A stretch of DNA of 17,114 nt from contig JADGNM010000007.1 in the NCBI GenBank assembly GCA_017883485.1, forward strand, positions 1 to 17,114, written 5' to 3'. The notes beneath the pieces were generated by a model. The model ran no database searches. It worked only from the letters and a program-made list of their open reading frames with translations, and was not told the origin of the DNA. Of the stretch, positions 14,650-16,364 are shown piece by piece. The position numbers and the translations under genes were made by a program. The stretch comes from Methanosarcina sp. (GTDB lineage: Archaea > Halobacteriota > Methanosarcinia > Methanosarcinales > Methanosarcinaceae). How positions within the stretch are numbered: position 1 is the first letter of the stretch; each line of letters begins with the position of its first letter.

Positions 14650-15378
14650 ATGGAACGAAAAGTCTATTTTGTAGGGGCGGGTCCAGGAAACCCAAAACTC
14701 ATTACTGTGCTCGGGCGTGAGATGCTTGTAAAAGCTGACTTTGTGGTGTATGCTGGCTCACTGGTAAATCCCGAGGTTCTTAAATATACACAGGGAGAAA
14801 CAGTAGATAGCTACGGTTTAACTCTAGAAGAGACCACTAAAATAATTGCGGATGCAGTAGATGCAGGAAAATTTGTTGTCCGGCTCCACAGCGGTGACCC
14901 CTCCCTTTACGGGTCCGTCGTGGAGCAGATGGAAGAGCTTAGAAAATACGACATAGAAGTTGAAAGAGTTCCGGGCGTCTCATCGGTTTTTGCAAGCGCA
15001 GCCGCTCTTGGTACTCAACTTACTCTTAACGGCATTTCCGATACTCTCATCATTACGCGCCCTGCCGGAAAGACTCTGGAAAAAGACCTTATCCCCGAAC
15101 TTTCTGCTTATAACACAACCATGGCAATTTTCCTGGGCACTCAGAAGATCAGGGAGATCATGGAGAAGGTCCGCTGCCCGAAAGACACACCCGTTGCAGT
15201 GGTTTTCCACGCCTCCTGGGAAGATGAGAAAATTATTACCGGAACGGTAGAAGATATAGCAGACAAAGTAAAAGATGCAGGCATTAAGCACTCGGCAATG
15301 ATAATTATCGGTGGGGTTGTTGACCCTAAGAACTACAGGAGGTCCTACCTATACGGAGTAGCGCAGGAACCGCTGTAA
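14650..15378 (+). CDS. cbiF: Cobalt-precorrin-4 C11-methyltransferase CbiF
   Basis: CbiF methylates C11 of cobalt-precorrin-4 with SAM, setting up the extrusion of a two-carbon unit by CbiG. Tetrapyrrole methylase motifs are clear: [14 protein letters not shown] (6-19), YAGSLV (34-39), [10 protein letters not shown] (79-88) and VPGVSS (107-112); the combination matches CbiF/CobM. 242 residues, normal length. The upstream ribosome binding site is weak (AAGGATTGG). Its last 28 bases overlap the apparent start of the CbiG N-terminal ORF in another frame, and AGGAGGT inside the end of cbiF is positioned to serve that ORF. Confidence 0.93.
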
Positions 15379-15890
15379 TTACATTCGAAAGGAATAGGGA
15401 AGTTGCAGCAAGGGTAGCTAGCCATCTGAAAGCTGACCTGTTTCTCTATGAAAAAGGCATATTTGAAAGAGTTTTTAAAAATTACGGGGCAATAGTTGCG
15501 GTCTTTGCCACAGGCATCGTAGTCAGGGAAATTGCTCCTCTTCTGGATAACAAGTGGTCGGACCCTGCCGTGGTTGTGGTTGATTCTAACCTGAACTTTG
15601 CAATCCCTCTTCTCGGGGGACATCACGGGGCAAATGAGCTTGCTCGACAGATTTCGGAACTGGGAGCAGTCCCTGTGCTAACAACAGCAACGGAAGTTCA
15701 TGGTAAGCCCTCGGTTGAAGGCATTGCAGATAGATCAGGCTGCGAGATTTTCAACAAGGGATCCACTGTAGCTGTAAACTGTGCACTCCTTGATCAGGGC
15801 ATAGAGGTCCTTGAGGTTAAGGGACCTGGAATCGTTATTGTGGACGAGGATGTATCCGTGCTGGTAAGAAAGCGGCAGAAGACGCAGTAG
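15351..15890 (+). CDS. cbiG: CbiG N-terminal and middle domains, apparent AUA start
   Basis: CbiG opens the delta-lactone of cobalt-precorrin-5A and releases acetaldehyde. This ORF encodes about 179 residues with the CbiG N-terminal domain ([37 protein letters not shown]) and the middle domain ([10 protein letters not shown] to [11 protein letters not shown]). The frame is open from 15330 (TAA at 15327), yet the first ATG/GTG/TTG is a GTG at 15570, codon 74, inside the conserved domain. An AUA at 15351 lies seven bases after AGGAGGT and gives the expected short N-terminus before AVITF, so I place the start there. It overlaps cbiF by 28 bases. A sequence error, real AUA initiation or a decayed gene are all possible. 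The C-terminal domain is a separate ORF. Confidence 0.75.
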
Positions 15891-15899
15891 TAACGGATG

Positions 15900-15937
15900 G
15901 AAGCATCGGTAAGCCGCAGAAGCATCGGTAAGCCGCA
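15900..15937 (+). repeat. Perfect tandem duplication of a 19-bp unit
   Basis: The 19-base unit GAAGCATCGGTAAGCCGCA occupies 15900-15918 and is repeated without change at 15919-15937. It lies in the gap between the two cbiG ORFs. Perfect identity points to a recent duplication or a site kept uniform. Nineteen is not a multiple of three, so gain or loss of one unit would shift any reading frame through it. Confidence 0.9.
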
Positions 15938-16010
15938 TAGGAAAGGCTAATGAGCCAACAACTGACGTTTGATCGGTAACTGCTTTAAAATCAGGGACAG
16001 ACGATAAAGG

Positions 16011-16364
16011 ATGATCATCGGAATAGGAACTCGCAGAGGCATTACAAAAGAAGAGGTCATTGAAGCTGTAAAACATGCACTTGATGAGTGCGGCCTGGGC
16101 CTGGATGAGATTACAGCTTTAGCTTCTGCTAAAATTAAGGAAAATGAACCAGGGCTGCTGGAAGCAGGAGAGATGCTCGGCATTCCGGTAGACTTTTTGC
16201 CGGACGAGGTGCTTAACAGTTATAATCCTCCTTCATTTTCCAGGGCATCTCGCTTCGGATTAAAAGGAGTTGCAGAACCTGCAGCTCTTGCCCTCTCCGA
16301 AGAAAAACAATTGATTTGCAGGAAGAAAGTATATGGCAGAGTTACAATCGCAATCGCAAGATAA
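16011..16364 (+). CDS. cbiG: CbiG C-terminal domain protein (CobE-like)
   Basis: A 117-residue stand-alone version of the CbiG C-terminal domain, homologous to CobE. Visible: MIIGIGTRRGITKEEV at the start, ALASAKIKENEPGL in the middle and GVAEPAALA near the end. In most bacteria this domain is the last third of a single CbiG chain. Here it follows the N/middle-domain ORF after 120 bases, in the same frame but separated by several stop codons. The ribosome binding site is poor (only AAGG directly before ATG). Its last 32 bases overlap the start of cbiH. The two halves probably act together, but this is inferred from family knowledge. Confidence 0.88.
   Translation: MIIGIGTRRGITKEEVIEAVKHALDECGLGLDEITALASAKIKENEPGLLEAGEMLGIPVDFLPDEVLNSYNPPSFSRASRFGLKGVAEPAALALSEEKQLICRKKVYGRVTIAIAR

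Follow-up and report, generated by a model that had tools for sequence, protein, structure and literature searches.

How is translation of cbiG started at a Methanosarcina sp. locus whose cbiG reading frame offers no canonical start codon between its upstream stop and a distant internal GTG? The locus was analysed in a window of 17,114 nucleotides (the whole stretch of DNA studied), which belongs to a source genome that is 82% complete and spread over 453 contigs. All features given here by window position lie on the plus strand. The upstream gene, cbiF (cobalt-precorrin-4 methyltransferase, PF00590), starts with ATG and occupies 14650–15378 including its stop; its TIGR01465 score of 256.6 bits falls slightly below the curated cut-off of 259.65. 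The N-terminal part of cbiG (CbiG_N, PF11760; 15351–15890, 179 codons and a stop) overlaps the 3' end of cbiF in the -1 frame relative to it and was recognized by profile match and dN/dS. Its product scores 113.3 bits against PF11760, a cobalt-precorrin-5A hydrolase domain with a cut-off of 25. The gene sits in a cob/cbi cluster, with cbiF upstream and the C-terminal part of cbiG (CbiG_C, PF01890) nearby as a separate gene with its own ATG (16011–16364). More tetrapyrrole methylase genes are also present in the window. cbiG is here split into N- and C-terminal genes (window 15351–16364), and an 18-base direct duplication (15901–15918 and 15920–15937) lies between the two parts.

In the cbiG frame, TAA at 15327–15329 is followed by the Shine-Dalgarno sequence AGGAGGT at 15337–15343, a gap of seven bases, and ATA at 15351–15353, the proposed start codon. 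The first ATG, GTG or TTG in this frame after the TAA is GTG 15570. A sequence-only reading had noted both the missing canonical start and the AUA seven bases after AGGAGGT, and direct reading of the frame bears out both observations. The Shine-Dalgarno sequence falls within cbiF Arg-Arg-Ser codons. ATA is also located inside cbiF, where its A closes a Leu codon (CTA, 15349–15351) and its TA opens a Tyr codon (TAC, 15352–15354). The 16S rRNA 3' end GGATCACCTCC was present in all six relatives tried; it was not found in the source genome, which is incomplete.

Conservation of ATA across the class

A match was found in 168 of 185 genomes searched in the order and in 218 of 237 in the class. The match-bearing genomes examined comprised all 104 of family f1, all 14 of f2, 13 of f3, all four of f4, 21 of 33 in f5 and 19 of 49 in f7; the weakly matching f3 genome G108 did not enter the count. 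Families f1, f2 and f3 belong to the order, and f7 lies outside it. Judged by named records with the same junctions, f1 is Methanosarcinaceae, f2 is an ANME-2 group and f5 is Methanoperedens-like. As a guess, f3 would be a further ANME-2 group and f7 would correspond to Methanotrichaceae.

Of the 175 genomes examined, 144 have an in-frame ATA seven nucleotides after GGAGGT. By family, it was present in 98/104 genomes of f1, 14/14 of f2, 13/13 of f3 and 19/19 of f7, and in 0/4 of f4 and 0/21 of f5. Conservation of AUA among relatives was one part of the support that the sequence-only reading had looked for, the other being a matching N-terminal peptide. These counts include a first scoring of 151 genomes, 120 of them with ATA (f3 8/8 there), by a search pattern that demanded GGAGGT and ATAC (the C after ATA included) and allowed small spacing changes; five f3 and 19 f7 genomes were added later. 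Spacing between the Shine-Dalgarno sequence and ATA was seven nucleotides in 120 of 120 genomes. The 98 f1 genomes with ATA contain 79 distinct 60-nt sequences, and the Shine-Dalgarno core GGAGGTC is invariant in all 98. Locus L281 (G235) carries the in-frame AUA as well. Across the phylum, a strict Shine-Dalgarno plus ATA pattern had matches in 42 of 392 genomes; one of these lies outside the class (G276, two matches), and a few matches within the class lie away from cbiG. Because the same codon is kept in most of the relatives examined, the cbiG ATA is, on this comparative evidence, a real and old feature.

The length of the cbiG open frame differs between families, at ~183–239 codons in f1 (336 in G041) versus ~290–390 in f2 and f5. 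These longer frames suggest that a fused cbiG may be the older form. CbiG frames in f3 are mostly short (~130–180 codons), and several matches carry an in-frame TGA or TAG; the loci concerned are L285 and L287 and the second matches in G061 and G087.

Start codons in relatives and codon choice in the overlap

The six f1 exceptions belong to genera g9 and g10 (Methanimicrococcus-like), the sole f1 genomes to fail the ATA search pattern. Their cbiF and cbiG do not overlap: cbiF, which retains an LYGV tail, ends 18–100 nt before a cbiG ATG (MDLKIAVVTFERN or similar). In the 21 f5 genomes and one f4 genome, an ATG is found two bases further on, in another frame relative to cbiF; the remaining three f4 genomes also have ATG. 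Outgroup loci came from named Methanomicrobiales and from genomes grouping with Methanomicrobiales on the tree. They resemble the Methanosarcina locus in gene order and, in many cases, in the relative frame, in the cbiF tail and in a Shine-Dalgarno sequence placed in cbiF Arg-Arg-Ser. They differ in having an ATGA-type overlap: cbiF ends Tyr-Ser-stop, and the cbiG ATG, 13 nt after GGAGGT, shares bases with the cbiF stop codon. In Methanosarcina this outgroup-type ATG is absent, and AUA lies two codons further upstream instead.

Three start-codon changes were counted on a tree of CbiF and CbiG, which was built by a quick method and leaves many forks open. Since g9 and g10 are nested inside an AUA-bearing family on this tree, AUA was replaced by AUG there, and the overlap was lost with this change. 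On this tree AUA itself may have arisen once (ancestral to the class, with reversal in f5 and f4) or twice.

Codon choice in cbiF was analysed in a codon alignment from 98 f1 genomes, which yielded 142 columns with an amino acid conserved in at least 90% and degenerate codons. With genomes chosen by the GGAGGT/ATAC pattern, which only g9 and g10 of f1 failed, the third base was invariant in three of the 142 columns. These are the codon at 15340 within the Shine-Dalgarno sequence, the Leu codon 15349–15351, which contributes the first base of ATA, and the Tyr codon 15352–15354, whose third base directly follows ATA. Elsewhere in cbiF, Leu codons ending in A accounted for 159/1914 in f1 (8%), 67/310 in f2 (22%), 9/173 in f3 (5%) and 50/556 in f7 (9%). 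Where cbiG starts with ATG, the overlapping Leu codon was CTT (15), CTA (4), CTG (1) or CTC (1) in the 21 f5 genomes and CTC (12), CTT (3) or CTG (2) in 17 outgroup loci. The corresponding codon in the six g9 and g10 genomes was TTG (3), CTG (1), CTT (1) or CTA (1).

No genome lacking ATG has CTA, TTA or GTA in place of ATA. A plain Ile codon would tolerate Leu or Val codons at this position, which argues that ATA is not an ordinary Ile codon. The codons that follow are also near-invariant in f1 (codon 1 is CGG in 98/98 and codon 2 is AGT in 94/98), and this points to some constraint beyond the start codon itself. The next Ile codon, codon 9 from ATA, was ruled out as a start because it varies in f1 (ATA 49, ATT 28, ATC 21).

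Alternative origins of the CbiG N-terminus

One alternative, itself very unlikely, is a programmed -1 frameshift near the end of cbiF that would produce a CbiF–CbiG fusion and reduce ATA to an ordinary Ile codon. cbiG does overlap cbiF in the -1 frame, and an internal Shine-Dalgarno sequence can stimulate frameshifting. However, only 2 of 120 genomes hold an X XXY YYZ heptamer within the overlap, and simple folding of 20 of the 120, pseudoknots aside, gave no clear sign of excess structure (mean MFE z of -0.3, range -2.72 to 1.49). The Leu and Val codons that a plain codon could tolerate at the ATA position do not occur, and relatives produce CbiG as a free-standing, AUG-started protein. Frameshifting out of cbiF, which the sequence-only reading had listed as one possible explanation, is disfavoured on these grounds.

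A later start, whether GTG 15570 or one of the various codons that databases use, is highly improbable. Database annotation does place starts there: among 120 listed CbiG proteins (of 1689), 102 start at twelve positions between codons 8 and 56 from ATA, with some entries being partial records. Yet GTG 15570, codon 73, is kept in only 31 of 98 f1 genomes, and codons 10–72 ahead of it gave a median dN/dS of 0.097 (range 0.04–0.20) in 28 comparisons of the source genome within its genus. From these values, the CbiG stretch upstream of GTG 15570 is under purifying selection. Moreover, the alignment with the solved Sulfolobus CbiG (3EEQ) begins at residue 31 when the protein is read from AUA, ahead of codon 73, and at most 57% of the 98 f1 genomes have a canonical start at any one downstream position up to codon 89.

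Individual groups do carry canonical codons close to ATA. An in-frame GTG lies four codons downstream of ATA in 8/8 f3 genomes, and GTG is found at codon 8 in 11% of f1; either could act as a start there. Three genomes of f1 and two of f3 also have an in-frame canonical codon between the previous stop and ATA; its position places it within cbiF. The other 18 of the 120 listed database proteins start at -7 to +2, and those with first residues shown resemble the ATG form of g9 and g10. Some of the database starts (P0001–P0120) read Ile or Val codons as the start. Of the 120 database proteins, 28 were examined in full, including some recorded under the names Methanosarcina mazei and M. barkeri.

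It is also highly improbable that the invariant block has some other role in DNA or RNA (as a regulator site, for example) and that the true start has gone unrecognized. In f1, an invariant codon 1 and an almost invariant codon 2 would agree with such a function, but f2 and f7 have the same Shine-Dalgarno sequence and ATA with different following bases. Further, the Leu wobble base is always A in genomes without ATG and varies in those with ATG. Finally, a base error in the source genome (ATG read as ATA) or a recent start loss with a decaying gene, both raised by the sequence-only reading and given some opening by an incomplete assembly of 453 contigs, can be set aside, as the identical ATA occurs in 144 genomes, single-contig ones included, and dN/dS is ~0.1.

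Proposed initiation mechanism and known near-cognate starts

AUA initiation of cbiG is supported by the codon, its 7-nt spacing, the lack of a canonical start and the recurrence of ATA in 144 genomes. On this sequence evidence, translation of the N-terminal part of cbiG very probably starts at AUA 15351, driven by the Shine-Dalgarno sequence and kept via the overlap with cbiF. Strong Shine-Dalgarno pairing would position the small ribosomal subunit on AUA, and initiator Met-tRNA (anticodon CAU) would read it with a third-base mismatch, giving a protein predicted to begin Met-Arg-Ser. The codon at the best Shine-Dalgarno distance would be limited to NTA while cbiF keeps its Tyr (TAY), because TA forms the first two bases of that Tyr codon, which is present in all 144 ATA genomes. 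Of the four NTA codons, ATA alone differs from ATG by a single base. Retention of AUA may be explained by the effect of ATG on cbiF, where it would convert the Tyr to Cys. Loss of the overlap, as in the Methanimicrococcus-like genomes, would then allow ATG to appear. Under this mechanism CbiG output would probably be lowered and coupled to cbiF. We also tentatively suggest, as possible though far less secure, that an ancient, strictly kept AUA locked by the overlap throttles CbiG and couples it to cbiF, and that the ribosomes of Methanosarcinia are more generally tolerant of near-cognate starts.

Two 400-kb stretches, each taken from a different Methanosarcina genome, were compared blind over 233 conserved ORFs. 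Twelve were listed in which the alignment extends upstream of the first canonical start, and two of these were judged by eye to be convincing cases of coding well ahead of it: cbiG and a glycosyltransferase gene. The latter (GT2 glycosyltransferase/LPG_synthase_TM) is located at L359:10407–12182 on the minus strand, with a homologue in the source genome (G000:C58:1175–2368). At 27 Methanosarcina loci of this gene the expected start codon was ATA (15) or ATT (12), in most preceded by GAGGT or GGGGT at a distance of ~7 nt. A canonical codon lies in frame upstream at two loci, and a GTG five codons downstream at ten. From these sequences, the gene seems to start at AUA in some Methanosarcina species and at AUU in others; the case is weaker than that of cbiG because the ATT group also has an upstream ATG in another frame. 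The tRNA genes in both 400-kb stretches revealed nothing relevant, with no initiator tRNA among them.

A reconstruction of start-codon switches in prokaryotes reports one AUG-to-AUU change among 61,358 ancestral AUG starts, and AUA is not named in the accessible portion of that report (PMC5622118). For a small haloarchaeal toxin ORF, mutation of AUG to any other triplet is described as giving a weaker toxin, with GUG and UUG rescued by a strong Shine-Dalgarno sequence (PMC8501985); this rescue fits the idea that a strong Shine-Dalgarno sequence makes a weak start usable. A review of archaeal recoding, in which the term AUA does not occur, reports that the initiation factor aIF1 helps archaea to discriminate against non-canonical starts (PMC8211752). 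Ribosome profiling of M. mazei reports non-canonical start codons of small ORFs, and its main text contains neither 'cobalamin' nor 'cbi' (PMC11456600). A literature search conducted largely at title level found no archaeal AUA start.

If true, AUA initiation of cbiG would be a start conserved across much of an archaeal class, with a clear evolutionary reason in the overlapping Tyr codon and natural controls in the genomes where the overlap is lost and ATG appears. The locus would provide a native test system for archaeal start-codon fidelity, and the reading would correct a vitamin B12 gene whose database starts differ widely.

Near-cognate starts are established in bacteria, and Escherichia coli infC starts with AUU. 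The AUU-started infC and pcnB of E. coli share with cbiG the use of a near-cognate start, which is described as limiting expression in E. coli; they differ from cbiG in the codon itself and in belonging to a different domain of life, and we know of no overlap lock for either gene. Closer still in codon are infC and ccpN of Staphylococcus aureus, reported to have an AUA start behind a strong, extended Shine-Dalgarno sequence, the non-canonical start of ccpN being conserved between S. aureus and Bacillus subtilis (PMC13009471). Near-cognate reporters in S. aureus (ccpN, citZ and AUU-started cvfC1) are described in the same study as giving ~10% of AUG expression, with ccpN reaching as much as 30% when grown in rich medium (PMC13009471). 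Methanosarcina cbiG thus has in common with S. aureus infC and ccpN an AUA codon and a strong Shine-Dalgarno sequence. The S. aureus genes are bacterial and their starts are described as start-codon attenuation, whereas cbiG, as known from sequence, is an archaeal biosynthetic gene whose start codon would be locked in place by the gene that overlaps it upstream.
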